From: a virus
Length of the DNA stretch: 64,000 bases
Virus record (IMG/VR): IMGVR_UViG_3300032562_000014
Coordinates: 1 to 64,000 of that record
Strand: one strand, 5' to 3'
In this document: positions 11,400 to 37,455 of the stretch, piece by piece
How the letters are laid out: every line of letters starts with the position of its first letter
How positions within the stretch are numbered: the stretch's first letter is position 1
Notes under the pieces: generated by a model
What the model saw: the letters and a program-made list of their open reading frames with translations, nothing else
What the model was told of the DNA's origin: nothing
Database searches by the model: none
Translations under genes and position numbers: made by a program

Positions 11400-12206
11400 C
11401 TATTTTACTCCGCAAAATCCATTGCACTCCATGAGTGGTTCTGCCATGCGTCCTTTCATCATGGATATGTCTTTCATGTGCGGGTATTTTGGGTGCGGCA
11501 GCAGGAATACTAAACCTCCACCTTTTGACTGATCTTTACATATAGTGACCGGCTCGCCTTTCATGTCGGTGTACTTGTGTTCCCGCATGGCCATGGCGTA
11601 AAACCTATCCGGAAAGTCCATTCTGAACTTTTGCCAATAACCTATGCCTCCTTTAACGCAGCCTGTTTTTAGGCAGTTGTTATTGCTGTAGCCCATTTTG
11701 TAGGATACAGGTGGCTCTATGCCGTGCTTTTGTAGGATTTTGATTGCTTCACCCTTCCTGAGTAATTCATTGATCACTGGGAATATGGGTTTGGTGCTCG
11801 GGTAGTTCTTCTTCATTTGCTTTGCCCGGTCAATTTCCTCTGCATCAAATCCAAAGCCTTGATGAGAGAAATTATTACGCACCTGAAAGTCTTCGCGCAC
11901 TATACGTTTTAATTCGGTAGAACAAATGGCTCCTGTTGCTACATTTAGGCTCAGATAATGCTCCCAAACATCTTCAATGCTATCCCATTTGTTGCTGGAG
12001 ATCGTTTCTATGGTTACGCCCCACCATTTTTCACAGTCGGCCTTGAATCTGTAGGTATCATCATCTTCATTCTTTGTGTCTATGAATACTACTCTCACGC
12101 ATTCCTTGCCAAACCATTTAAGGCACAGCCAGCAGGTTATTGCCGAATCGGCGCCGCCTGACCACCAGGCTATTACAGGATTATCTTTACTGATGTTTTC
12201 AAACAT
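11400..12206 (-). CDS. PAPS reductase/DndC-family PP-loop ATP pyrophosphatase
   Basis: 268 residues from the ATG at 12206; the extension to 12395 would read through the structured leader and is rejected. The PP-loop SGGADSA is at 16-22. Downstream are Cys-containing segments (GAICSTELKR; CLKTGCVKGGIGYWQKF; a terminal CNGFCGVK) that could bind iron-sulfur or zinc, as in many DndC-like and phage-borne members. The family activates sulfate or thiolates substrates. Without dndD/E or cysDH neighbours it is not a classic sulfate-assimilation gene. It is a minus-strand island within a plus-strand structural block with its own promoter and leader, so it looks like a moron gene. Confidence 0.82.
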   Translation of the reverse strand: MFENISKDNPVIAWWSGGADSAITCWLCLKWFGKECVRVVFIDTKNEDDDTYRFKADCEKWWGVTIETISSNKWDSIEDVWEHYLSLNVATGAICSTELKRIVREDFQVRNNFSHQGFGFDAEEIDRAKQMKKNYPSTKPIFPVINELLRKGEAIKILQKHGIEPPVSYKMGYSNNNCLKTGCVKGGIGYWQKFRMDFPDRFYAMAMREHKYTDMKGEPVTICKDQSKGGGLVFLLPHPKYPHMKDISMMKGRMAEPLMECNGFCGVK

Positions 12207-12228
12207 AGATAATGATATAAAAAAACAA

Positions 12229-12272
12229 CCCCTTGTAGAGCTTCGGCCTGGCAGCCTCCACTCCGCAAGGGG
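12229..12272 (-). promoter_or_regulatory. Structured leader of the PAPS-reductase-like gene
   Basis: On the minus strand: CCCCTTG against CAAGGGG as the outer stem, an inner GGAG/CTC(T) and GGC/GCC helix separated by an internal loop (TGGA opposite GAAG), then a TTGTTTTTTT tract and the ATG 22 bases later. It has the shape of an intrinsic terminator placed in a leader of about 100 bases, hence a possible attenuator or riboswitch. The remaining bases up to 12398 are AT-rich and hold the two opposing promoter elements. Confidence 0.55.
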
Positions 12273-12315
12273 TAAAATATCGTTTATTAAGTCGTGGCAG
12301 CGACTGTTTGCATGC

Positions 12316-12323
12316 CAAAAGTA
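12316..12323 (-). promoter_or_regulatory. Probable -7 element for the PAPS-reductase-like gene
   Basis: TACTTTTG on the minus strand fully fits TAnnTTTG, but no TTTG is found 19-20 bases upstream, so the promoter is incomplete by consensus. A start near 12309 would give a leader of about 100 bases carrying the hairpin at 12229-12272. In the opposite direction TATCTTTA (12366-12373) may serve the gene at 12399, although its TTTG is only 16 bases upstream. Confidence 0.4.
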
Positions 12324-12398
12324 GTATATTTTTCTTGAAAAATAATTTGAAGTGCAAAAATATTCTATCTTTACGCACAATAATACCCAGCACACCTT

Positions 12399-18976: not shown

Positions 18977-21900
18977 ATGCGTTTTTTGAGAAGGCTTTTT
19001 CTGTTCATTTTTGCCTTGATTCTGATAGGCATTTGCTCCCGGTCTTTCGGACAGCAGGTATTTCCAATAGGTAATCCAACAGCCATAAACAGGGCACTCG
19101 GAGAGTATGCTGCGGATAGCGCACTGAAAGCGCCAAAGGTAAAAAAAGTGTTTCCTAACTTTGATAGTACGGGGAATATTGCTGTAGTAGGAGGTATTTT
19201 GTATTACCATGACGGCAACCACTGGGCGGCAGTAGATACAGGTGCAGGAACTGGTGTAACTTTAGTGCAACTTAATGACAGCCTCGCGAACTACCTGAAA
19301 TTGAAGGATAGCACTACTAAGTGGGTCACGATAACACAACTCAATGACAGTTTTGGCACACACCATAGCGCCGACAGCACGGTGTTCTCCACTATTTACC
19401 GCAACGACACAGGAAACAAGGCAATACGCGCCATTGTCATTGATCTCATTCAAAGCTACGGTATAGCCATTACAGGAGCGGCAGGGCAGACTGTAGGCTC
19501 TTCCCCTGGCTGGGTAATATCAACAGATACTACGAAGATACCTCCCTTTACTGATACGTTGCCCGGCAACAGGAAGCTGGTTACGCCTACTTATCTTGCG
19601 GCACAGGGATATGGCACCGGTACGGTAACATCAGTAACAGCCAACCCATTATCTCCTCTGTTTACGACATCAGTAGCTACGGCAACAACTACTCCGGCAA
19701 TATCCTTCACGCTTAATACTCAATCTGCAAACCTTGTATTTGCTGGGCCATCTTCCGGTGGTGCTGCGGCCCCGACATTTCGATCATTGGTGTCACCTGA
19801 TATTCCTTCACTCACTGGTGGGCAAGTAGGCATATCGGGTTTATCTGCGACAGGCACTCCTTCGTCTACTACATTTCTTCGTGGGGATAATACATGGTCT
19901 GCTGCCGGTACAGGCACGGTGACCTCTGTGGGCTTATCCACGCCATCCATATTTTCAGTTACGCCCACTCCGATAACTACGGCTGGTACATTTTCTGTTA
20001 CGGCGGTACCTGAAACGGCTAATACCTTTTGGGGTGCGCCAAATGGCAGTACTGGTCAGCCAACATTTCGCACATTGGTATCTGCCGATCTTCCCGGAGG
20101 TACGGGTACGGTAACATCAATAGCCACAACAAGCCCTTTGACCGGCGGGACAATTACTACTACAGGAACTTTGGGAATCACCCAGGCCAGCACAATAAAC
20201 AGTGGGTATCTTTCTTCTGTAGACTGGAATACTTTCAATGGGAAACTTTCATCGGCAGTTACCAGCGTGGGGTTGTCTACTCCTTCTATATTCTCTGTTT
20301 CGCCAACATCTATTACTTCAACTGGTGTGTTTACGGTTACTGCTGTGTCGGAAACGGCGAACACCGTATGGGCGGCTCCTAATGGTAGTTCAGGCCAGCC
20401 AACATTCAGGGCATTAGTTGCGGCGGATCTTCCGGCAGGAACCGGTACTGTTACATCAGTATCAAATAGTGATGGAACCTTAACCGTTACCCCTACAACA
20501 GGTGCTGTAGTTGCTTCAATAAACCTTACCAATGCTAATACATGGGGAGGTTTACAAACATTTCATGGTATAAAGTTAACTGACGGAAGTAATATAGATT
20601 GTGGCTCTACAACAGGCACTATTATAGCTACCGACCCTACACATAAACTTGGGTTTTATAACACCACTCCGGTGGTGCAGCAAACGGGGGATATTAGAAC
20701 GGGATTAAGTAATCTTGGTTTAATAACATTGGGTACTTTGAGTGCATCCAGCATTACAGGCACGTTAGGCACAGGTAACGGCGGTACAGGAGCGACTACG
20801 CAAACGAGTGTAAATACTATTTCTATAACTTACGGGGCAAATAATACAATTACAGCAGCCCCATCAGGCTCCGCAGGTGGCGACCTCACAGGAACATACC
20901 CAAATCCTACACTTGCAGCGGCGGGAACGGCGGGAACTTACGGGAGTGCCACACAAACACCTGTTTTTACTACAGATAGTAAAGGAAGGGTAACAGCGGT
21001 AACTAATACGACCATTACGCCTGCTTATGCGAATGTGACGGGAACGCCTGTTATTTCACTTACGGTAAATGGCGTTACGGGCAATAACAATACAGCAATA
21101 ACGGTGAACCCTATACCTACAGGAGTATCAGCGGGGACTTGTACTTATTGCACTATTACACACAATATATATGGCGAGGCTACGGCTTATAGTAACGGCA
21201 CAAACCCTGTTACCTCCATAGTGGCAGGCACGAATGTAACCACATCAGGCACTACGGTAGTAACCGTAAATGTACCATCTATACCTTATTCAAGTGTAAC
21301 AGGTACTCCTGTAATAAGTGCAACTGTTAATGGTGTGACTGTGAATAACAATACAGCAGTAACAGTAAATGCTACACCGTCTGGCAATGCAGGCGGCAGC
21401 TTAACTGGAACGTACCCTAATCCAACTATTGCGGCAAGCGGGGTGACAGCTGCGGCTTATGGAGGAGCAAATTCAATACCAATAGTTACAGTAGGAACAG
21501 ACGGAAGAGTAACTTCAGTAACTACTGTAAACCCATATTCTACAGGAGGAACTGTAACAAGTGTAGGTTTGACAACTCCTTCTATATTTTCTGTGACGCC
21601 TACTCCTATAACCACTTCTGGGACGTTTAGTGTAACCGCTGTGCCTGAATCAGCAAACACTTTTTGGGCTGCGCCAAACGGCAGCAGTGGTCAGCCAACA
21701 TTTAGAACAATAGGAACAGCAGATGTACCAACGCTGAATCAGTCAACAACTGGATCAGCTGGAAGTCTTTCTCCTGGTGCAAATATAAATGGGGTGTCTT
21801 TTACAGGCTCATCAAATATAACAGTTACAGCCGCAGCAAATACGCTAACAACAGCAACATTAAACCCTACAGTTGTTACATCTTCGTTAACTTCAGTAGG

Positions 21901-24900
21901 AACAATAACAAGCGGTATTTGGAATGGTACAACAATTGCTCAATCAAGCGGAGGAACAGGGGCGACAACTCAAACTTCTGTTAATACAACTCCAATAACA
22001 TATGGGGCGAATAATACAATAACAGCTGTGCCTTCTGGTAATGCTGGTGGAGACTTGACTGGGACATACCCTAATCCCACATTAGCAGCAACAGGAACAT
22101 CTGGAACATATGGAGGGAGCAACGCTATACCAATCGTTACGACGGATTCAAAGGGAAGAATAACTTCAATCACAACAGTCAACCCAGTTTCTGCGCCAGT
22201 TTCTTCAGTTTCAAATTCAGATGGAACATTGACTATATCACCCACAACAGGATCAGTAGTTGGATCGTTGAATTTAGCTAACGCAGACACATGGACAGCA
22301 TTACAGACTTTCAACAAAGGCATTGTTTTTCCTTCTTTAAATGTAACACCAGCAACTCCAACAACAGGAAATACCGTATTTACAAATAGTGTAAATGTTT
22401 TGACCTCGTTAAACAACAACGGCTTTCAAACAGGATTAGACTTTACGGGCAATACAGCCAATAGAATATATACAGGAGCAAATCATAATTTCACATTTGA
22501 TAATTTAAGCACAAGCACAACTACAACAAATGGCTATTTTAAAGGTTCTGGCGGTTTAGGAACATTTGTAACTTCAATACCAAATGGCGATTTAGCAAAC
22601 AGTTCAATAACAATAAACGGAACATCAACTTCTTTGGGCGGAAGCGTTTTGACAGGAACGGTCAATGCGGTTTCAATCGCATCAGCAAACGGCTTTGGAG
22701 GCACTTCTTCAGGTGGTGCAACACCTGCTTTAACGATAACAACTTCTATTAATGGATTGATGGAAGGAAATGGAACAGCAGCAGTCATAGCAACAAGCAC
22801 AAACGTTTTGTCTGCTTTAGGAACACAACCGAATCATACATTCTTAGGCAACAATACAGGTTCAGCAGCTTCAGTGGGATTTTACCAGCCAGCTTATACA
22901 GACATATCTGGAACACCAACAATTCAAACAACAATAAATGGGACAATTGTAGCAAATGCAACACCCGTTACAGTTAACCCAATACCAGCAGGAACAGCAG
23001 GAACGTATGGCTCTGCCACACAAACCCCTGTATTCACCACTAATAGTTACGGGGAAGTTACTGGCGTTACTAATACTACGATCACCCCTGCTTACGCCAA
23101 CGTGACAGGAACGCCGGTTATTCAGACTACCATCAATGGTACCGTAGTCGCTAATGGTGTACCTGTTACGGTGAATCCTGTACCCACTGCTGTTACTCCT
23201 GGAACTTATACGAATACAAACCTTACAGTAAATGCGGCGGGCCAGATCACAGCAGCAAGTAACGGAGCCGCAGGCGGGGTTACATCAGTGATCGCCGGTA
23301 CGAACGTGAGCGTGACCGGAACGAGCACGCCGACCGTAAGTGTTACCAACTATCCTTATAGCGGGTTGTCTGGCGCTCCGGTGATCCAGGTTACTATTAA
23401 TGGCACTACGGTAGCTAATGGCACCGTAGTAACAGTTAACCCCAATCCCACAGCCGTAACTGCAGGCAGTTATACATATTCCAACATAACTGTTGGTGCA
23501 GACGGCAGGCTTACGGCTGCAAGTAATGGTACAGCTCCAACGACTTATACAGCAGGTACAGGATTGAGCGGCACAACATCCTTCAGCATCACGCCTGTGA
23601 CAACTTCTGGTACTTACACAAACGCTACAGTAACAGTAAACGCGCTGGGACAAATTATCGGGGCGGCCAGCGGGTCAGCTCCGATAACTTATACAGGCGG
23701 CCAGAATATCTCTATTACTTCCGGCACCGTAAACCTATCAGGCACAATACCTGTTTCTAACGGTGGGACCGGGGTGACCACCACAACGAGTGTTAACGGT
23801 ACTCCAATATCCTACGGAGTTGGGAATACGCTGCCTATTGGAGTTACTTCTATTGTGGCCGGGACGAATGTAACGACCACAGGTACAACAACTGTAACTG
23901 TAAATGTACCGTCTATACCATATGGCAGCGTAACCGGTACACCTGTAATATCTGCTACCGTGAATGGTGTTACTGTAAATAACAATACGGGTGTAACCAT
24001 TACAGCGGCTCCTACAGGCTCCGCAGGTGGTGATCTTGCAGGCACATATCCTAACCCAACTGTAGCTACTGCCGCTATTACAGGAACTAAGATAGCGAGT
24101 GCGACCGTCACCAATGGTAACCTTGTGAACAATACTGTATCAGTCAACGGAACGCCCGTTGCCTTAGGCGCGGGGATTACTATAACTGCAGCGCCGAGTG
24201 GGAGTGCGGGAGGCGACCTCACAGGAACATATCCTAACCCTACATTAGCAGCAACAGCGGTAACAGCGGCAAGCTACGGCAGCAGTACGGCTATTCCGTC
24301 ATTCACGGTAGATGCTAAGGGTAGATTGACAGCAGCCAGTACTAATGCGGTCATTGCACCTGCGGGTACTTTATCGGGTACTACACTTAACAGCGGCGTG
24401 GTGTCAAGTTCTTTGACAAGTGTAGGAACTATAACAGCGGGTACGTGGAATGGAACGGCTATTGCTAATGCTTATCTCGCCAATAGCACCGTAAGTGTAA
24501 ACGGCACACCTGTAGCACTCGGAGCGGGAATAACAGTTACAGCGGCTCCGAGCGGCGCAGCAGGCGGCGACCTTACCGGTACATACCCTAACCCGACCAT
24601 CGGCGCAGGTAAAGTAACCAATACCGACCTTGCAGGTAGCATAGCTGCCAGCAAATTGATAGGTACAGACATTGCAACTGTAGGTACAATAACCACAGGT
24701 ACATGGAACGGAACGGCTATTGCTAATGCGAACCTTGCTAATAGTAGCTTGACGGTTAACGGCAGCAGCGTTTCTTTGGGTGGGAGCGTAACGGTGAGCG
24801 CAGCCCCGAATGGTAGTGCGGGTGGTAGCCTTACAGGTACTTATCCTAACCCGACCATAGCGAGTAGCGTTTCTTTGCCCGGCAGCCCGACCACTACAAC

Positions 24901-25255
24901 GCAGGCTATAGACGACAACAGCACCAATATTGCCACGACTGCTTATGTGCAACTTTACATACCCGCAGATACAAGCATATCGGCATCCTACACACTTACA
25001 TCAAGGGACAGATACAGGACATTGCACAGCACCGCATCGAGCGGAATTACTTTGACTATACCAACCTCATTAGGTACGAAATTCACATGCACAGTTATTG
25101 AAGAGGCGGCGGGTAATGTAACCTTTTCAGCAAGTTCTACAACACTAACATTTATACCCACATCAACGACTAAGACAAAGCAAAGCGGCTCTATTGCCAC
25201 GGTGCGGAGTTGGGCTACAGCAAACAGTTTCACAGTTCAAGGGGATTTACAATAA
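18977..25255 (+). CDS. Giant repetitive fibre-like protein with N-terminal signal peptide
   Basis: 2092 residues. Residues 1-27 look like a Sec signal peptide: MRFLRR, a hydrophobic core LFLFIFALILIGI and a cleavage-like SFGQQ. The rest is Gly/Thr/Ser-rich repeats with two main modules: GGDLTGTYPNPT, seven times with variants, and VTSVGLSTPSIFSVTPTPIT followed by GQPTFRTL. These are patterns of tail-fibre shafts in Bacteroidota phages and prophages. The C-terminus (about 1985-2092, from AIDDNSTNIATTAYVQ on) is a compact beta domain. A Sec signal on a fibre-like protein is unexpected because tails assemble in the cytoplasm. It is the first gene of a three-gene secreted module. Confidence 0.7.
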   Translation: MRFLRRLFLFIFALILIGICSRSFGQQVFPIGNPTAINRALGEYAADSALKAPKVKKVFPNFDSTGNIAVVGGILYYHDGNHWAAVDTGAGTGVTLVQLNDSLANYLKLKDSTTKWVTITQLNDSFGTHHSADSTVFSTIYRNDTGNKAIRAIVIDLIQSYGIAITGAAGQTVGSSPGWVISTDTTKIPPFTDTLPGNRKLVTPTYLAAQGYGTGTVTSVTANPLSPLFTTSVATATTTPAISFTLNTQSANLVFAGPSSGGAAAPTFRSLVSPDIPSLTGGQVGISGLSATGTPSSTTFLRGDNTWSAAGTGTVTSVGLSTPSIFSVTPTPITTAGTFSVTAVPETANTFWGAPNGSTGQPTFRTLVSADLPGGTGTVTSIATTSPLTGGTITTTGTLGITQASTINSGYLSSVDWNTFNGKLSSAVTSVGLSTPSIFSVSPTSITSTGVFTVTAVSETANTVWAAPNGSSGQPTFRALVAADLPAGTGTVTSVSNSDGTLTVTPTTGAVVASINLTNANTWGGLQTFHGIKLTDGSNIDCGSTTGTIIATDPTHKLGFYNTTPVVQQTGDIRTGLSNLGLITLGTLSASSITGTLGTGNGGTGATTQTSVNTISITYGANNTITAAPSGSAGGDLTGTYPNPTLAAAGTAGTYGSATQTPVFTTDSKGRVTAVTNTTITPAYANVTGTPVISLTVNGVTGNNNTAITVNPIPTGVSAGTCTYCTITHNIYGEATAYSNGTNPVTSIVAGTNVTTSGTTVVTVNVPSIPYSSVTGTPVISATVNGVTVNNNTAVTVNATPSGNAGGSLTGTYPNPTIAASGVTAAAYGGANSIPIVTVGTDGRVTSVTTVNPYSTGGTVTSVGLTTPSIFSVTPTPITTSGTFSVTAVPESANTFWAAPNGSSGQPTFRTIGTADVPTLNQSTTGSAGSLSPGANINGVSFTGSSNITVTAAANTLTTATLNPTVVTSSLTSVGTITSGIWNGTTIAQSSGGTGATTQTSVNTTPITYGANNTITAVPSGNAGGDLTGTYPNPTLAATGTSGTYGGSNAIPIVTTDSKGRITSITTVNPVSAPVSSVSNSDGTLTISPTTGSVVGSLNLANADTWTALQTFNKGIVFPSLNVTPATPTTGNTVFTNSVNVLTSLNNNGFQTGLDFTGNTANRIYTGANHNFTFDNLSTSTTTTNGYFKGSGGLGTFVTSIPNGDLANSSITINGTSTSLGGSVLTGTVNAVSIASANGFGGTSSGGATPALTITTSINGLMEGNGTAAVIATSTNVLSALGTQPNHTFLGNNTGSAASVGFYQPAYTDISGTPTIQTTINGTIVANATPVTVNPIPAGTAGTYGSATQTPVFTTNSYGEVTGVTNTTITPAYANVTGTPVIQTTINGTVVANGVPVTVNPVPTAVTPGTYTNTNLTVNAAGQITAASNGAAGGVTSVIAGTNVSVTGTSTPTVSVTNYPYSGLSGAPVIQVTINGTTVANGTVVTVNPNPTAVTAGSYTYSNITVGADGRLTAASNGTAPTTYTAGTGLSGTTSFSITPVTTSGTYTNATVTVNALGQIIGAASGSAPITYTGGQNISITSGTVNLSGTIPVSNGGTGVTTTTSVNGTPISYGVGNTLPIGVTSIVAGTNVTTTGTTTVTVNVPSIPYGSVTGTPVISATVNGVTVNNNTGVTITAAPTGSAGGDLAGTYPNPTVATAAITGTKIASATVTNGNLVNNTVSVNGTPVALGAGITITAAPSGSAGGDLTGTYPNPTLAATAVTAASYGSSTAIPSFTVDAKGRLTAASTNAVIAPAGTLSGTTLNSGVVSSSLTSVGTITAGTWNGTAIANAYLANSTVSVNGTPVALGAGITVTAAPSGAAGGDLTGTYPNPTIGAGKVTNTDLAGSIAASKLIGTDIATVGTITTGTWNGTAIANANLANSSLTVNGSSVSLGGSVTVSAAPNGSAGGSLTGTYPNPTIASSVSLPGSPTTTTQAIDDNSTNIATTAYVQLYIPADTSISASYTLTSRDRYRTLHSTASSGITLTIPTSLGTKFTCTVIEEAAGNVTFSASSTTLTFIPTSTTKTKQSGSIATVRSWATANSFTVQGDLQ
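20860..24870 (+). repeat. Degenerate protein-level repeats in the fibre-like gene
   Basis: Seven copies of the GGDLTGTYPNPT-type module occur near 20875, 21385, 22040, 24020, 24205, 24560 and 24815, each followed by a variable beta segment. Codons differ strongly between copies while the peptide is kept, so this is not a recent DNA duplication. The stretch from about 22200 to 22980 is visibly more AT-rich than the flanks. Confidence 0.75.
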
Positions 25256-26275: not shown

Positions 26276-26479
26276 ATGAGTACCGAAAATATACAGCAGA
26301 TAGTAGATATAGCTATGAAGCCAAACGGGCAGACAGCAAACAAGCACATACTTGTCGTTGTGATCGTGTGCATGATACCTACTATCTTATTCGGCATAGA
26401 TAACGGCATTGCCTATAGTGCCATAAAAAAGCCACCCATATACAGGTGGCTTTTCTCATTCAGTGTATTCCGTAATTAG
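26276..26479 (+). CDS. Small single-pass membrane protein, hypothetical
   Basis: 67 residues, with one hydrophobic segment at about 24-42 (HILVVVIVCMIPTILFGID). The last 20 codons run through the terminator hairpin at 26424-26454 and the frame ends 4 bases inside the 3 prime end of the convergent groEL gene. This is possible but odd and lowers confidence. It is co-directional with the secreted module. Confidence 0.4.
   Translation: MSTENIQQIVDIAMKPNGQTANKHILVVVIVCMIPTILFGIDNGIAYSAIKKPPIYRWLFSFSVFRN
26424..26454. terminator. Bidirectional terminator between the secreted module and groEL
   Basis: GCCACC (26431-26436), loop CATATACA, GGTGGC (26445-26450), with an A-run before and TTTT after, so U-tracts follow the hairpin on both strands. 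It separates convergent transcription from 18977 onward and from the chaperonin operon. Confidence 0.85.
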
Positions 26480-28065
26480 CTTTCTGATACCACACATTCT
26501 GTGTTCAATAAAAGCTGCGCTATAGAGGCTGCATTCTCCAGCGCTATCCTGGTTACCTTTACCGGGTCTATAACGCCTGTTTCAAAGAAGTGTTCATACT
26601 CCCTTGTTTTGGAATTGTAGCCATAGTCGCCACCGGTCTTTTTTACTTCATCAATGATAGCGTCTATGTCTTTTACCCCTGCATTTTGTAGTATAAGGCG
26701 AGCCGGTTCGCTTATGGCTTCTTCAACGATAAGTACACCTGTTGCTTCATCTTTATTGGCTACCTCTATCAGTTGGATAGCCTGTATAGCATTCAGGTAA
26801 GCTACACCACCACCGGGCAGCACACCTTCGTCTATGGCCGCGAGTACAGCACACAGGGCATCTTCAATACGATCTCTTTTTTCTTTCACTTCCGGTTCGG
26901 TAACGCCACCTACATAGATAACGCCTATGCCGGATGTGAGTTTTGCAAGCCGGCCAGCCAGTGCCTTCTTTTCGTAGGGTTGCTTGCTTTCGGCCACCAG
27001 TCCTTCGATCATCTTTGCGCGGGCTGCAATGTCAAATTCTTTTCCGCGAGCGCCGGTGATCAGTGTAGATTCCCGGTCAATAACCACCTTATCTGCATAT
27101 CCGAGATAGGATGAAGGTGCATTGACTAAATTGTGGCCCTTGTCGCGGCTGATTAGTGTGCCGTTGGTAATGATGGCAATATCTTCCATGATGTCCTTCG
27201 TGATCAGGCCGTCTTTAGGCATCTTTATCACGCATATAGGGCGCTTCATCTGGGCCACAGTAGCGTTGATGTTTTGCAGGGCTTCTCCGTCCATCTCTTC
27301 GCAGATAATAAGGATAGCCTTTTTGTCATTGAGCGAATACTTGATCAGCGGCTCTACTTCATTCCACTGGCTTATCTTGTTGTCGCACATCAGTATGTTC
27401 ACGTTCTCCAGCACTACTACATCGCTGGTATCGGACTGGCGCATGTACGGGGATATGTAGCCACGATCTATCTTCACGCCTTCTACCTTTTTTACGTAGG
27501 TTTCCCCGGTGAGTGAATCTTCAATGCTCACAAGGCCATGCTCTCCTACCTGGCACACGATGTCGCTCACCAGTTTACCTATTTCGGTATTGTTATTGGC
27601 TGATATGGAAGCGATGTTGATCAACTGCTCCGGGTCGCGGCCTATTATTTTGGCAGCCTTACCCAGTTGTTCTACTACGCATTTAGTGCCCTTTTTTATA
27701 CCTTCTGTGAGATCGGCTGCACTGGCACCTTCATTCAGTTCTTTGATGCCTTTATTGATTAACTGCTGCACAAGGACTATAGACGTTGTGGTGCCATCAC
27801 CTGCGGCCTCTGCGGTATTGGTGGCCACCTCTTTCACAAGCTGTGCGCCCATGTTCTCCAAAGTATCCGGCAACTGGCGTATGCTGCGCGCTACGGTCAC
27901 TCCGTCCTTTGTGAGATACGGCACAGGTCTGTTCGGGTTAAGGCTCTGTATCATCACGGTATTGCCGGATGGCCCCAGTGTGGACTTCACGGCATCTGCC
28001 AGGATGTTGATGCCATTGCTAAGTTTGGTTCTCGCTTCTTTGTCAAAATCTACTCTTGTACTCAT
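26476..28065 (-). CDS. groL: GroEL-type chaperonin (HSP60)
   Basis: 529 residues, full length. The ATP-binding motif GDGTTTS is at 89-95, TKDGVTVAR at 52-60, ENMGAQLVKEVA at 70-81 and PGGGVAYL near 410, with the usual equatorial C-terminal GVIDPVKVTRIALENAASIA. The bacterial Gly-Gly-Met tail is absent (ends CVVSES). It should form a double ring that folds phage proteins. Phage-borne GroEL is rare but known in a few large phages. It is 32 bp downstream of the multi-domain GroES-like gene in one operon on the minus strand, opposite to the surrounding structural genes, and is controlled by the operator-bearing promoter at 29798-29844. Confidence 0.96.
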   Translation of the reverse strand: MSTRVDFDKEARTKLSNGINILADAVKSTLGPSGNTVMIQSLNPNRPVPYLTKDGVTVARSIRQLPDTLENMGAQLVKEVATNTAEAAGDGTTTSIVLVQQLINKGIKELNEGASAADLTEGIKKGTKCVVEQLGKAAKIIGRDPEQLINIASISANNNTEIGKLVSDIVCQVGEHGLVSIEDSLTGETYVKKVEGVKIDRGYISPYMRQSDTSDVVVLENVNILMCDNKISQWNEVEPLIKYSLNDKKAILIICEEMDGEALQNINATVAQMKRPICVIKMPKDGLITKDIMEDIAIITNGTLISRDKGHNLVNAPSSYLGYADKVVIDRESTLITGARGKEFDIAARAKMIEGLVAESKQPYEKKALAGRLAKLTSGIGVIYVGGVTEPEVKEKRDRIEDALCAVLAAIDEGVLPGGGVAYLNAIQAIQLIEVANKDEATGVLIVEEAISEPARLILQNAGVKDIDAIIDEVKKTGGDYGYNSKTREYEHFFETGVIDPVKVTRIALENAASIAQLLLNTECVVSES

Positions 28066-28097: not shown

Positions 28098-29768
28098 TTA
28101 CGCAATAGTGGTTTCTGCGGGTATGGTGGCATACAGGTCGCCCCGGCGCATAAACAGGTATTCTTCACCTTCTATCTTTATAGAGGTGCCGGCCAGTTTC
28201 TTGTACAGTACGGTATCTCCTTCATTGATGTCGGTGACAAGTTCTCCTTTGGAGATAATGGTTCCCTTCTGTGGCTTTTCTTCGCCCTGTATTTTGATGA
28301 ACATATCATCTGCCTGTTCCGGTATTGGTTTTACAAAAACAAGGTTGCCCAGTGGTTTTACTTGGTTCATTTCGTTTATTTTAGCTGTGATAAAATCTGA
28401 GTGAGCGATAAGGTATTTCTTACCGAAAAGGTTGATGGGGTATAGTTCTTTGTAGGACGCGAGGCATATATTCGGTAACTGCTTTGGGAACTCTATCTTG
28501 CAGCGCATCAGGTGGTTGCGGTTTAGCCCGGCACTCTCGGCAATGGCATCTGCTTTCAGGCGCTCCATCTTATTTTCAAAGTCCTGTACTTTGAGTGCAA
28601 ATTCAGGGTCGCTTTTGTCTATGCGCTCCACATCGGCGCGGTAGCCTTCGTACTTAGCCTGAAACTTCTGCACCCGGTCCTTCTTTTTGTGATCAAGTGT
28701 TATGGTGAATGAGCTCAGGTCGCGGCATTTGGATAAGTCGCTGTCAAGGCCGGGAGATAGCAATTCATCATTCTGTCGGTTGCTATGCTCAAAGATGTCA
28801 AATTCAAAATTGAGGAACACGCTTTTATTGAACGGGATTATTTTCATATCCGGTATCTTCCCGTACAATTTACGGTTCTCTATTTTGCCGAATATCTCGC
28901 GGGCATTAGGGTCAAGGCAGTTGATGATGCGGTGTTCTTCTATGTAGTTATCAAAGCTACCCTCAAACCTGCGGAGTATGCGGTATGGCTGTGACTCTAT
29001 GGAGTGGTGAAGGATGGCCATGTCGCCCACATTCAGCAATGGATACATCTTCTGCGCCTCACTACCAATATCCACCACCTCGCCATACTGCAGGTTGCGC
29101 AACATGTGAATATATAAAGGTGACTGCACAAAACCGCTGTCTGTAGTTTCGCGCTTGATCTTCTGTGCGGCCAGGTCTATAGATACAATGATACGATGTG
29201 GTGATACTAAGCCATTGACTGTAAATACGTCCTTCTCGTAGAGTATGTGGTACGTCTTATCTCCTTCGCGAAATGAAGGGTATATGGCCACCTTTACTTC
29301 TTTGCGAAATTCAATGATGGCGCCCGATTTGAAATAAGACCCTGCCGGGGCCTTGTATATGATTGCTTTGCGCGGAGTGCCTTCGGTATCATCAGCGATT
29401 ACCAACCCATCTTTGGTTACATGGCTCTGGGTGACAATTTCTACAAACAGGCGGTTGTATGGTTCTCCATTGACGCGCCATACTTCATCTTCAAACACTA
29501 CCGGATGCTCCACGCCGTATATCTCTATAGACCTGTATGATCCTGTATCTTGCTGGGTGCGCTTGTATAAGATGTTGTCCCCTTTTTTAAAAGAAGACCC
29601 TTCACAAGTGTATAAAACCACACCACGCGCGCATAGGTTGTTGATGTCGTCCGGCGCTATAAGCCCATCACCCAGGTCTTCGGCGGATGTGTTTGGCTCA
29701 ACGATCAGTGTCTTGTAAATAGTCCCTGTGCTATGCACATAGGGGAGTGGCTGGTAGGTGGCGCTCAT
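28098..29768 (-). CDS. Giant multi-domain GroES-like co-chaperonin
   Basis: 556 residues, about six times the size of GroES. The C-terminal domain (467-550) is a clear GroES fold: MNQVKPLGNLVFVKPI, EKPQKGTIISKGEL, INEGDTVLYKKLAGTSIKI. Related, more diverged domains lie at about 17-100 (ARGVVLYTCEGSSFKKGDNILYK), 103-198 (PRKAIIYKAPAGSYFKSGAIIEF) and 218-285 (YGEVVDIG, LLNVGDMAILHH). A fifth, less certain one (308-330 plus 418-465) appears interrupted by a charged coiled coil at 358-412. It presumably caps the GroEL encoded immediately downstream. A seven-domain ring could be formed by fewer chains. Domain number above three is an inference. Confidence 0.8.
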   Translation of the reverse strand: MSATYQPLPYVHSTGTIYKTLIVEPNTSAEDLGDGLIAPDDINNLCARGVVLYTCEGSSFKKGDNILYKRTQQDTGSYRSIEIYGVEHPVVFEDEVWRVNGEPYNRLFVEIVTQSHVTKDGLVIADDTEGTPRKAIIYKAPAGSYFKSGAIIEFRKEVKVAIYPSFREGDKTYHILYEKDVFTVNGLVSPHRIIVSIDLAAQKIKRETTDSGFVQSPLYIHMLRNLQYGEVVDIGSEAQKMYPLLNVGDMAILHHSIESQPYRILRRFEGSFDNYIEEHRIINCLDPNAREIFGKIENRKLYGKIPDMKIIPFNKSVFLNFEFDIFEHSNRQNDELLSPGLDSDLSKCRDLSSFTITLDHKKKDRVQKFQAKYEGYRADVERIDKSDPEFALKVQDFENKMERLKADAIAESAGLNRNHLMRCKIEFPKQLPNICLASYKELYPINLFGKKYLIAHSDFITAKINEMNQVKPLGNLVFVKPIPEQADDMFIKIQGEEKPQKGTIISKGELVTDINEGDTVLYKKLAGTSIKIEGEEYLFMRRGDLYATIPAETTIA

Positions 29769-31686: not shown

Positions 31687-34326
31687 ATGTTACAGATCAG
31701 AGAATGGTTCGATGTAGAACGGAAAGACAAAGATGGCGAATGGGCTAATAAGATCATTCGGTTCATCCGTATGCAGATGCAGCCATTGGTGGATATAAAA
31801 AGCGCAACACGAGGCATGGCGTACATGCTGGGCAAGCAGGATATGTCCCCTATCAGAAATCTGTTTCAAAACTCAGCAGAATTAAACCTCAATAACAGGC
31901 CGTTATACAACCAATACAACAACCGGCTGCTACGTGCGGAAAATGACAGCGATGTAAGCCTCTTACACGAGATGGCCAATGTTGACTTTATGTCACTACC
32001 CATCATGGAGAAGTTGAAAAACGTCTTCATTGCAGAGATGAAAAAAATGGGTGTTATCGCGGTGGTGAAATCTACAGACCCTACCAGCGGCGTAGCCAAA
32101 AAGAACGATGAAGCATTTATAGTGAATAAGGACCGCATGGAGAAATTCATCAGCGGCATGTTCACCCAGATGGGACAGCCTCCATTCAAGATGCAGCAGG
32201 CTAAAGACCGCATTGGTAAAAAGATGGACAGTGGCAACACGCAGGACTTTGATAAGATGTCGCTGGACCGTAATGACCCTGCGGATGTAGCCACCTTTAT
32301 GAAGTATTTTCACAAGCTCGACTGGGAGATAGAAATGCAGAAGCTGGTGGATGCAATATTAAAGTTCAATCAGTTAGAGTCTTTCATATCCAACATGACG
32401 GTAGACATCATTGCCAAAAAAGCAGTGGCCTACCAAAGCTATGTGAGCAAGGTCAATGGGGCGGTAATGGCACAGTACCTCACGCCGGAAACAGTATACA
32501 TATTCGGAGGCGGCAGAAGGGAGGACTACAATGATGCCAGCGCCAAGGCATACCAGCAGAGCGTGACGATAAAAGAATTGCTGGACAGGTTCGGCGATTC
32601 ATTCGACATAGAGAAGTACATGGATAAGCTGATCATAGCGGTGTTTACAGCCTCATCAGGCGCTATAGACATCACGGCGATACATCCAAGTGGCAGGTAC
32701 TATTGCCAGGGTCGCGACACAGGTACAAACGGGCAGAACATCAACTACACCTACAACCAGTTCCTCAACTTCAAAGTGACCATAGGTTACATGGAGTGGA
32801 TCAGCCAGAACATGACCGAGTATGGTGAGGAGATAAACAGGGTAAACCTGAAAGACCTGAACAACTCCGCCAAGGTAAAGCAATTTGAGGGCACATTCTA
32901 CGAAGACAACCAGCCGCCGAACGGCAAAAGGTACCAGACCAAGGCGCGCTATGAAACAGGCACTTATTGTTCTTACTACCTTGTATTGACAATGGTAGAC
33001 CATCTTATGTTCGACTTTGGAGAAGTGACCTACAAAGACATAGAAGGCTACCAGGACTTCAATACCAACTTCACCATCATCACTCAAAAAGTGATTGGCG
33101 AGCCAATAGCTATTACCTGCGCTCCGTTCATAGACCTCATCAATGAATTGTGGTACAAGTTCAAGTATGAAGTGCGCCGGTCAAAGCCTCGCGGGACCGA
33201 CTACAACTACGATAGTTTGCTGGCTATGGCCATGGATATATTCCCGGACAACACGCTGAATAAATCCGAGAAGATAGCTAAGATGGTAGCATGGCTTGAT
33301 GGCAGCGCTAACAGCATGTACACCTTCCCTGTGATCGAAGGAAAGGTAGTGCCGATGACCAGCAACCAAGTTAACATTGACAGGCCCAATGGTTTGTCAC
33401 CTAACTCAAAAATATATTGGGAGAGTCTTATAGAGATATGGGCAAAGATGCTGGACACGGTGGGTATTGCGCCGCTACGTGAAGGCGATCCCGGCAATCC
33501 ACGCGACTCCATGAACAACCAGTTCAAGGCGCTGGAGTATAGCCTTGCATCTACGTACTACATACCCGATATGATCACCGCTGTATGCGAAGACATAGCC
33601 ACACGGTCCTTGTTCTTTGTGCAGGACATCATACAGTTCAAAGACATAGACACGCTGGCATACAGGTTCCTTGTCAATCTTGTAGGAGAAGAAACACTAC
33701 AGGCCATAGAAGGCATGGGTAAAGTAGGTATGCACCGGTACAGCGTTTATGTAGAGGCGATGAACCAATCATCATTACTACAGAAAATAGACACCAGCAT
33801 ACAGCTTGCTGTGCAGAACGGTAAAGTAAGTGTGGCCCAGCAGCTCATGCTCGAAGACATCAAAAGCCCACGGCAGAAAGGCATTGTACTGGCCTACTTT
33901 GAGGAGAAGGCAAACAAGGATGCGCAACAGGCTGCACAGCAGCAGCAGCAGGCGCAGCAGCAGCACGAAATGCAGATGAAGCAGATGGACATGCAGATAG
34001 AGAAAATGAAGGGCGACCAGATGCTGCAGGGCAAGACCATAGATGCTAACGCAACCATGCAAGCACACCTCATTAACCAGAAGGGTGGCATAGATAAGAC
34101 GAAGATGAAATTGAGTGGTGACGTTGACCAGATATATCATCAAGCTAATGCTGATCTATTAACAGAGCAGCAGAGTCTGAATAACACCGGTAAGACTACG
34201 CCACCACCACCCGCGCCACCTGTACAACCACAGCAGCAAGCGCCACTACCCGTACAGCGCGCACCAAGCGCATTACAGTTGGAGCATAATGCGGCAGAAC
34301 CAATGCCTACTACGGCTAATGTTTAA
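31687..34326 (+). CDS. Portal protein
   Basis: 879 residues. The body (residues about 50-720) has the layout of Bacteroidota podovirus and crAss-type portals: an N-terminal helical wing, a central clip-like region (VMAQYLTPETVYIFGGGR..), a stem and crown with conserved SLIEIWAKMLDTVGIAPLREGDPGNPRDSM. The C-terminus (735-800) is a Gln-rich coiled coil, then a Pro/Gln-rich tail. It would form the dodecameric DNA gate at the capsid vertex. It is the first gene after a terminator and is followed by scaffold-like and capsid genes, the standard head order. Its 3 prime end overlaps the convergent regulator gene by 11 bases. Confidence 0.8.
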   Translation: MLQIREWFDVERKDKDGEWANKIIRFIRMQMQPLVDIKSATRGMAYMLGKQDMSPIRNLFQNSAELNLNNRPLYNQYNNRLLRAENDSDVSLLHEMANVDFMSLPIMEKLKNVFIAEMKKMGVIAVVKSTDPTSGVAKKNDEAFIVNKDRMEKFISGMFTQMGQPPFKMQQAKDRIGKKMDSGNTQDFDKMSLDRNDPADVATFMKYFHKLDWEIEMQKLVDAILKFNQLESFISNMTVDIIAKKAVAYQSYVSKVNGAVMAQYLTPETVYIFGGGRREDYNDASAKAYQQSVTIKELLDRFGDSFDIEKYMDKLIIAVFTASSGAIDITAIHPSGRYYCQGRDTGTNGQNINYTYNQFLNFKVTIGYMEWISQNMTEYGEEINRVNLKDLNNSAKVKQFEGTFYEDNQPPNGKRYQTKARYETGTYCSYYLVLTMVDHLMFDFGEVTYKDIEGYQDFNTNFTIITQKVIGEPIAITCAPFIDLINELWYKFKYEVRRSKPRGTDYNYDSLLAMAMDIFPDNTLNKSEKIAKMVAWLDGSANSMYTFPVIEGKVVPMTSNQVNIDRPNGLSPNSKIYWESLIEIWAKMLDTVGIAPLREGDPGNPRDSMNNQFKALEYSLASTYYIPDMITAVCEDIATRSLFFVQDIIQFKDIDTLAYRFLVNLVGEETLQAIEGMGKVGMHRYSVYVEAMNQSSLLQKIDTSIQLAVQNGKVSVAQQLMLEDIKSPRQKGIVLAYFEEKANKDAQQAAQQQQQAQQQHEMQMKQMDMQIEKMKGDQMLQGKTIDANATMQAHLINQKGGIDKTKMKLSGDVDQIYHQANADLLTEQQSLNNTGKTTPPPPAPPVQPQQQAPLPVQRAPSALQLEHNAAEPMPTTANV

Positions 34327-35883: not shown

Positions 35884-37455
35884 ATGGCAATAGCGTACAA
35901 CAGGACCCCGCAGTATCCTCAGCGTATTCAGACATCTGTGCAGAGCGCCACATCGCAGCTTCCTGCCTTCATTCAAATGTATCGCCCGCTGCGCGACTTT
36001 ATTGACAACGGCGGCCTGGCATCCCTCGGCTATGCCGAAGAGGATATAGCGCGCTGGAACTCAGACTTCCGACCAGGTGTGATCAATATCGGTGGCCGTC
36101 CTATAGAGATAGACTTCTTCAAAGACCTGATGGGTGGCGAAGAGAAAGAAGTAGACGCTTCTGACTACTACATAGAGTATAACTCTTATGTAGACCTGAA
36201 CATATACGCTGAAAATGCCGTGACCGGTACTTACCAGACCGTAACAGGTTGCTCTTTCGGCAGCACTGTGAATGGTTCATATACCGGTAATGCCGCGACC
36301 TTCAATATCGCAGCATCACAGTATGCCAACAACGGCCTCAACTCAAACATCAACGTAGGTGACGAGATACTCATCTACCAGGATAACAAATGGGTGCAGG
36401 TGATCAAGAAGGACACAACCGTTCCTTATGCCCACGCTATCACCGTGGCCCCTAAAGACCCGGCCTACATCATCAACATCCCTGCAAAACTGAAGATGTT
36501 CCCTGTACACGCCCAGCACACATCCGGCTACAGCGACAGGACAACGATCAGCCTGCATACAGAATGGGAAACTCCCGGCTATGTAAAGCGCATACAGCCC
36601 GCTTCGTATCGTATAGACTACGAAACGCCGCGTAACCTGGACCGCGCATGGCAGGATCTCGTGACCTTCCCTATCATATTCGATATGGCGACAGGCGCGC
36701 TGATAGACAGCTTTGACCTGAAAGCATCACAGGCAGCCCGCGAAGCAATGGTGATAGGTGTGAACCTCGCCTTCTTCACAGGTGAAAAACTGAAAAACAC
36801 CGGCCTTACCGGAGCTAACTTCACCCAGCAGTACAACGGGTTTGATGGCTTCCTGACTACCTTATTCTATGGTGGTGGCAACATATGGGAGTATGACAAC
36901 AGCTATGGCTTCGACCTGGATGCTGACTACAACCAGATCACCCTGCAGAACGATGCGCTGAAACTGGCCACCGAATACCTGATGCTCGTTTCCAAAGCAT
37001 TCAAACGCCAGATGGAAAACAGGGCGCAGGATATGTTCAAGGGCAACTCCGGCCAGTGTACTTTTGAAACCTTCACAAGGGGAGAAGCAGACCGCGATAC
37101 CAATACCTTTGTAACACGCCAGGGCATCAAGTCCTACGCATGGGGCGGTGATACCCTCCATATAAAAGAAGTAGGCGCATGGTCTGATACCCGCAGCGTA
37201 GGTAACGGCTACTACAAAAACATGGGCATCCTACTCCCCGGCACAGGTATGACAGACAGCAACGGTAACTCCGTAGCGCCTGTAGAATACTACCGTCCGA
37301 AGGGCCGCACCATATCTTCCATGTGGACAGAAACATTCCGCGATGAAATGCAGCTCTCCGGCGCTGACAAGTTCACCGGCACTATCGAAAACACCATCAT
37401 GGCCGCAGTGAACTGCGTAGAAAACATGTATGCAATCATGCCTAAATACTTCTAA
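35884..37455 (+). CDS. Major capsid protein
   Basis: 523 residues. It follows the scaffold-like gene and precedes neck and tail genes. The sequence has HK97-type features: a helical N-arm (about 1-60), an inserted beta domain with Thr/Gly-rich strands (about 105-195), and a C-terminal core with the segment TETFRDEMQLSG and a final NTIMAAVNCVENMYAIMPKYF. Its codons are strongly biased toward abundant choices (AAC, GGT, CTG), as expected for the most abundant virion protein. A strong terminator overlaps its stop codon. Confidence 0.75.
   Translation: MAIAYNRTPQYPQRIQTSVQSATSQLPAFIQMYRPLRDFIDNGGLASLGYAEEDIARWNSDFRPGVINIGGRPIEIDFFKDLMGGEEKEVDASDYYIEYNSYVDLNIYAENAVTGTYQTVTGCSFGSTVNGSYTGNAATFNIAASQYANNGLNSNINVGDEILIYQDNKWVQVIKKDTTVPYAHAITVAPKDPAYIINIPAKLKMFPVHAQHTSGYSDRTTISLHTEWETPGYVKRIQPASYRIDYETPRNLDRAWQDLVTFPIIFDMATGALIDSFDLKASQAAREAMVIGVNLAFFTGEKLKNTGLTGANFTQQYNGFDGFLTTLFYGGGNIWEYDNSYGFDLDADYNQITLQNDALKLATEYLMLVSKAFKRQMENRAQDMFKGNSGQCTFETFTRGEADRDTNTFVTRQGIKSYAWGGDTLHIKEVGAWSDTRSVGNGYYKNMGILLPGTGMTDSNGNSVAPVEYYRPKGRTISSMWTETFRDEMQLSGADKFTGTIENTIMAAVNCVENMYAIMPKYF

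Follow-up and report, generated by a model that had tools for sequence, protein, structure and literature searches.

A phage genome fragment encodes a co-chaperonin in which several GroES-like domains follow one another on a single polypeptide chain. The window analysed here comprises 64,000 nucleotides of an IMG/VR virus record that is 72,644 bases long and has no end repeats. Within it, an open reading frame encoding 556 amino acids lies on the minus strand at 28098-29768, with an ATG start at 29768; the plus-strand reading of the same interval is full of stops. A sequence-only reading had placed a co-chaperonin with four or five GroES domains at exactly this location, giving no strand, and profile comparisons now indicate that the chain is made of at least four GroES-like units, and probably of five, beside a GroEL of its own. 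We lean towards viewing it as a natural concatenated five-unit GroES that acts as a lid for the adjoining gene's GroEL.

That partner GroEL (529 amino acids, 26476-28065, minus strand) starts 32 nt downstream of the multi-domain GroES gene and matches both Pfam Cpn60 (E 9.6e-57) and PHROG GroEL (1.6e-135). It is the only Cpn60 gene of the record. The multi-domain gene directly precedes groEL, an order that is identical in a second phage (see below), and a search of both phage records found no Cpn10 gene besides the multi-domain one in either. The record is that of a phage rather than of a plastid or apicoplast, as seen from its matches to a DnaB-like phage helicase and to phage virion proteins. 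Among the genome-contig matches listed, the closest GroELs are from Bacteroidota (43-45%), which is a weak hint that the host may belong to this group.

For the comparison with GroES, the protein and its homologue from the second phage were each cut into five units, and the resulting two-sequence profiles were compared by hhalign with two reference profiles, one of 65 single-domain GroES, almost all taken from beside viral GroEL genes, and one of 143 GroES sequences. As decoys we used 29 windows cut from portal and GroEL alignments, none of which exceeded a probability of 0.54% against the 65-sequence profile. Against the same profile, unit 1 (residues 12-100; 29469..29735, minus strand) reached 97.5% over 79 columns, unit 2 (residues 103-186; 29211..29462, minus strand) 97.5%, and unit 5 (residues 469-549; 28122..28364, minus strand) 99.4%, the hhalign values spanning 97.5-97.9% for unit 2 and 99.4-99.6% for unit 5, and units 1 and 2 matched each other at 97.7%. 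Pfam Cpn10 (PF00166) scores the whole protein at 63.3 bits (E 2e-17), against a curated cut-off of 21.1, and recognises two stretches in it and three in the homologue. The stretch at residues 470-549 falls in the canonical unit 5, which scores 45.1 bits alone; unit 2, which also has a sequence match to human Cpn10, has an E-value of 0.0013 alone and of 2.4e-6 in the homologue, where this unit alone is likewise above the cut-off (27.9 bits). On these profiles we regard it as nearly certain that residues 12-100, 103-186 and 469-549 are GroES units.

Unit 3 (residues 189-299; 28872..29204, minus strand) is, by the same kind of comparison, a diverged GroES. It matched the 143-sequence profile at 71% over 69 columns, a result that none of 300 column shuffles equalled, and in a multiple alignment with 34 GroES all of its GroES strands are in order, with an insertion of about 22 residues before the last one. 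The earlier proposal that the C-terminal 84 residues form a GroES, with at least three GroES-like repeats upstream of it, is thus borne out by units 1, 2, 3 and 5, and since units 1-3 also match GroES profiles, the opposite case, in which the C-terminal domain alone is GroES, clearly fails. Chance repetition of a motif is excluded as well, given the scores of units against each other and against GroES, the low decoy scores and the shuffles.

Unit 4 (residues 306-463; 28380..28853, minus strand) as a whole scores just 3-8% against the GroES profiles, and its first strand alone gave no significant match to GroES. In contrast, the 47 residues at its C-terminus align with the final GroES strands in the correct register, with none of 250 shuffles performing as well. 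Of the checks proposed from the sequence, profile-profile comparison was positive for the upstream units, but structure prediction of the whole chain was not: the AlphaFold2 model from the two-sequence alignment had a mean pLDDT of 38 and was unusable for the barrels, so that its helices alone, at about 351-382 and 390-418, were used. A separate AlphaFold2 model of unit 4, built with 28 aligned GroES rows, has a helix at 390-414 and GroES-like strands at 316-321, 420-425, 433-438, 442-447, 450-456 and 460-464, and follows the GroES strand order. Its top 31 matches among PDB structures are all of the Cpn10/GroES or Cpn20 type, the best having an E-value of 0.027 and none passing 0.001; since GroES rows were included in the alignment and bias this result, the structural resemblance is supportive rather than independent.

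Because GroES-like strands are found on both sides of the helices, the helical hairpin or coiled-coil insert (residues 351-418; 28515..28718, minus strand) would interrupt unit 4 near the place of the GroES mobile loop. This differs from the sequence-only reading, where the coiled coil was put between the fourth and last units; it lies between the first and the C-terminal strands of unit 4 and, given these flanking strands, cannot be the connection from unit 4 to unit 5. There is thus moderate support, from sequence and model, for unit 4 being a degenerate fifth GroES composed of a GroES-like first strand, a helical insert of about 80 residues and the GroES C-terminal strands. One may also consider that GroES identity is limited to three or four of the units and that the fourth, or with lower probability the third, is a module of unrelated kind, in which case the chain would be an adaptor with a GroES tag that delivers a client or a virion protein to GroEL. 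The low score of unit 4, the insignificant match of its N-terminal strand and its poorly conserved helical insert all fit such a scenario, yet the in-register C-terminus and the modelled strand order of this unit, together with the score and shuffles obtained for unit 3, make it improbable.

The homologue, a protein of 561 amino acids, is encoded by IMGVR_UViG_3300022751_000017 (91 kb) and was located by a peptide scan with the 879-residue presumed portal (31687-34326). Residues 7-546 could be aligned at 35-37% identity, and the homologue also directly precedes a GroEL, in a gene order common to both phages. Conservation varies along the chain: identity is 35% for unit 1, 39% for unit 2, 49% for unit 3 (the most conserved part) and 33% for unit 5, while in unit 4 the two ends show 35% and 43% and the coil, the least conserved part, 22%. 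A full-length homologue in the same gene order in a second phage means that the architecture is neither an assembly nor a frame artefact. A metagenomic record without end repeats could, in principle, contain repeated groES copies fused by a sequencing or assembly error, but the independent record with the same five-unit layout refutes this, and the units differ too much among themselves to have arisen as assembly copies; we consider the probability of such an artefact negligible.

Two natural members of the five-unit architecture are now known. Searches of viral contigs with peptides of the protein itself, of the alignment, of the portal and of the homologue, and with a DNA pattern for GSEAxKMYP, yielded IMGVR_UViG_3300022751_000017 alone as a further relative with this architecture. 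In tblastn against 50,697 phage records, unit 5 alone was matched and units 1-4 of the homologue matched nothing, and 395 Bacteroidota genomes gave no full-length match; run without a positive control for the full architecture, these searches carry little weight. When units 1-4 were used as query, the same Bacteroidota genomes gave one ordinary GroES frame of 95 amino acids, matching unit 2.

Ordinary GroES genes look quite different. All 62 recognisable GroES near 80 other viral GroEL loci are single-domain (84-133 amino acids), as are about 78 host GroES frames beside 80 bacterial GroEL genes, none of them longer than 157 amino acids, and GroES is also single-domain, where visible, in Bacteroides SJC03, Flavobacterium immuto and elemo, Cellulophaga Calle_3 and crAss-like cr111. 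To our knowledge, GroES chains longer than two units exist only as laboratory constructs, and the searchable open literature, with subscription journals largely outside it, yielded no natural GroES chain of more than two units. A review (PMC5780408) gives one unit per chain for GroES and two for chloroplast Cpn20, in agreement with what the sequence-only reading had stated of GroES and plant Cpn20. The present protein, with 556 amino acids and at least four units, is neither a single domain of about 10 kDa nor, with four to five units, a Cpn20 with exactly two tandem Cpn10 domains. PHROG 13932 (200 amino acids, named GroES) matches residues 454-547 / unit 5 (28284-28406) through its C-terminal half alone, and may be a tandem, two-unit phage GroES. 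Roughly 18 of the 80 viral GroEL loci had no recognisable GroES in the fetched flanks (e.g. L013, L014, L018, L020, L064 and L073), and some of them may use the host GroES or an unrecognised lid.

Alignment places a hydrophobic, mobile-loop-like segment in units 1, 2, 3 and 5; it is absent from unit 4. On the minus strand these are DGLIAPDD in unit 1 (residues 34-41; 29646..29669; HGIEIPKD in the homologue), DGLVIADD in unit 2 (residues 120-127; 29388..29411; GGIIIPDE), SGFVQSPL in unit 3 (residues 211-218; 29115..29138; SGLIRPEA) and DMFIKIQG in unit 5 (residues 488-495; 28284..28307; SHLILPED). The hydrophobic cores are therefore LIA, LVI, FVQ and FIK in this protein, and IEI, III, LIR and LIL in the homologue.

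The partner GroEL has diverged as well, in a region that binds both lid and substrate. Its apical helix I reads ALQNINATVAQMK, versus the usual ALATLVVNKLRG, and the VVN core, which we assign to this helix, is near-invariant in 79 bacterial and 80 viral GroELs and replaced by N-A-T here and by S-I-N in the second phage. Helices H and I of GroEL are those that bind GroES (PMC5780408). Helix I is diverged too in crAss-like phage GroELs, where no such lid is known. At the inter-ring pair corresponding to R452/E461 in E. coli GroEL numbering, 79 bacterial GroELs have an invariant R, and E/D; the pair is lost both here (R/K) and in the second phage (I/T). Since many viral GroELs with an ordinary GroES have also lost it, this loss is not specific to the multi-unit lid. 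The partner GroEL has no GGM tail and may, from its sequence, be a single-ring chaperonin.

Most likely, the multi-unit lid would bind its own co-diverged GroEL. Alternatively, the chain might be an inhibitor that caps the rings of the host GroEL unproductively and so frees resources for the phage. Several of its mobile-loop-like segments depart from the usual GI[IV][LI]P pattern, and tight binding would be conceivable for a large multivalent lid; nevertheless, each of the two phages encodes a GroEL alongside the chain, and the mobile loops have diverged in parallel with this GroEL, which suggests service to that partner and makes inhibition of the host very improbable.

If the protein is a linked five-unit lid of the adjoining gene's GroEL, its four units with a mobile-loop-like segment would contact GroEL, while the fourth unit would present its helical hairpin instead of a loop. 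In a GroES ring, neighbouring subunits pack together through the first strand of one and the last strand of the next. The linkers between consecutive units are, by inspection, short (about 4-11 residues) and fit such neighbour placement, and adjacent units would be arranged side by side as the subunits of a GroES ring are. Given that four units have a hydrophobic loop segment, no more than four or five of the seven GroEL subunits would be contacted by one chain, and as five units fall short of a seven-fold ring, about two GroEL apical domains would face no lid loop; the unit-4 hairpin might screen them. The resulting lid would be asymmetric and more weakly bound, and it could be released even if no second GroEL ring pushed it off; its client would presumably be the phage's own late proteins. 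The sequence-only reading had conjectured that a chain of this kind might cover most of the ring by itself, and might seal the cavity asymmetrically or enlarge it for a client such as the capsid or the giant fibre.

Engineered proteins provide a precedent for several of these steps. A seven-copy linked GroES works, and variants of it with two disabled units, and hence five active ones, let single-ring E. coli GroEL fold proteins (PMC5575113), so that a lid that makes fewer contacts, on rings that pair weakly, would be a workable design. Linking six or eight units likewise gives chains that function with GroEL, as cited in PMC5780408 from Guo et al. 2015. A stricter version, in which the permanently linked lid is asymmetric by design, with each position specialised (four different loops and one hairpin) and two GroEL subunits unlidded, giving either a chamber with a defined side opening or a weak lid that would cycle on one GroEL ring, is possible but doubtful.

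The number of units can also be read in another way, since one five-unit phage chain and two host GroES would add up to a seven-unit ring (5 + 2 = 7), forming a hybrid lid re-targeted to the phage GroEL. In chloroplasts, co-chaperonin chains of one unit and of two are indeed combined to give a total of seven (PMC5780408), and no separate single GroES was seen in either phage record. However, phage lid and phage GroEL have both diverged from the host types, which argues against routine mixing, and we therefore think a hybrid lid unlikely.

The proposed five-unit lid shares with GroES/Cpn10 (PF00166, including the phage GroES of PHROG 3188) the barrel sequence pattern and the groEL-adjacent gene and has, in four units, hydrophobic segments that align with the mobile loop, but those proteins have one unit per chain, as opposed to what are probably five here, one of them with a helical insert that replaces the mobile loop. 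Like T4 gp31-type lids it is a phage-encoded co-chaperonin, those lids being made of single-domain subunits. Chloroplast and apicoplast Cpn20 also has Cpn10 units head-to-tail on one chain, in a number mismatched to the seven-fold ring; it has two units and belongs to eukaryotic organelles, whereas the phage chain would have five, all strongly diverged. As single-chain lids, the closest counterparts are engineered GroES7 (PMC5575113) and the GroES/Cpn20 concatamers of 6-8 units (Guo et al. 2015, as reported in PMC5780408), and a predicted count of five units is near that of the active units in those GroES7 variants in which two were disabled and which restore single-ring GroEL to function (PMC5575113). 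In contrast to these man-made chains of six to eight units, the present one is natural, with probably five units, each of them diverged.

Nature is otherwise known to use single or double units, longer chains being artificial fusions, and here a phage lid apparently joins four or five GroES copies. The engineered long chains have been used to probe the number of GroES units that GroEL requires. With a natural, diverged chain and a GroEL whose lid-binding helix is altered, stoichiometry, asymmetry and single-ring cycling become testable on an evolved system, and a ready single-chain lid opens each position to study on its own.

Some observations concern the phage itself. The presumed portal (879 amino acids, 31687-34326) and the major capsid candidate (35884-37455), labels that derive from size and gene order and from no family match, are 50-55% identical to their counterparts in IMGVR_UViG_3300022751_000017, and have neither a Pfam or PHROG match nor a tblastn match in the 50,697 phage records. 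Judging by such comparisons, the phage belongs to a lineage that it has in common with IMGVR_UViG_3300022751_000017 and that is far from the described ones. A protein of 2092 amino acids (18977-25255) is probably a repetitive fibre; several of its stretches of 60-85 residues all match one 1.7-kb gene of the relative phage. Lastly, a phosphoadenosine phosphosulfate reductase-like gene is present at 11400-12395 on the minus strand (PHROG 424, 1.8e-45).
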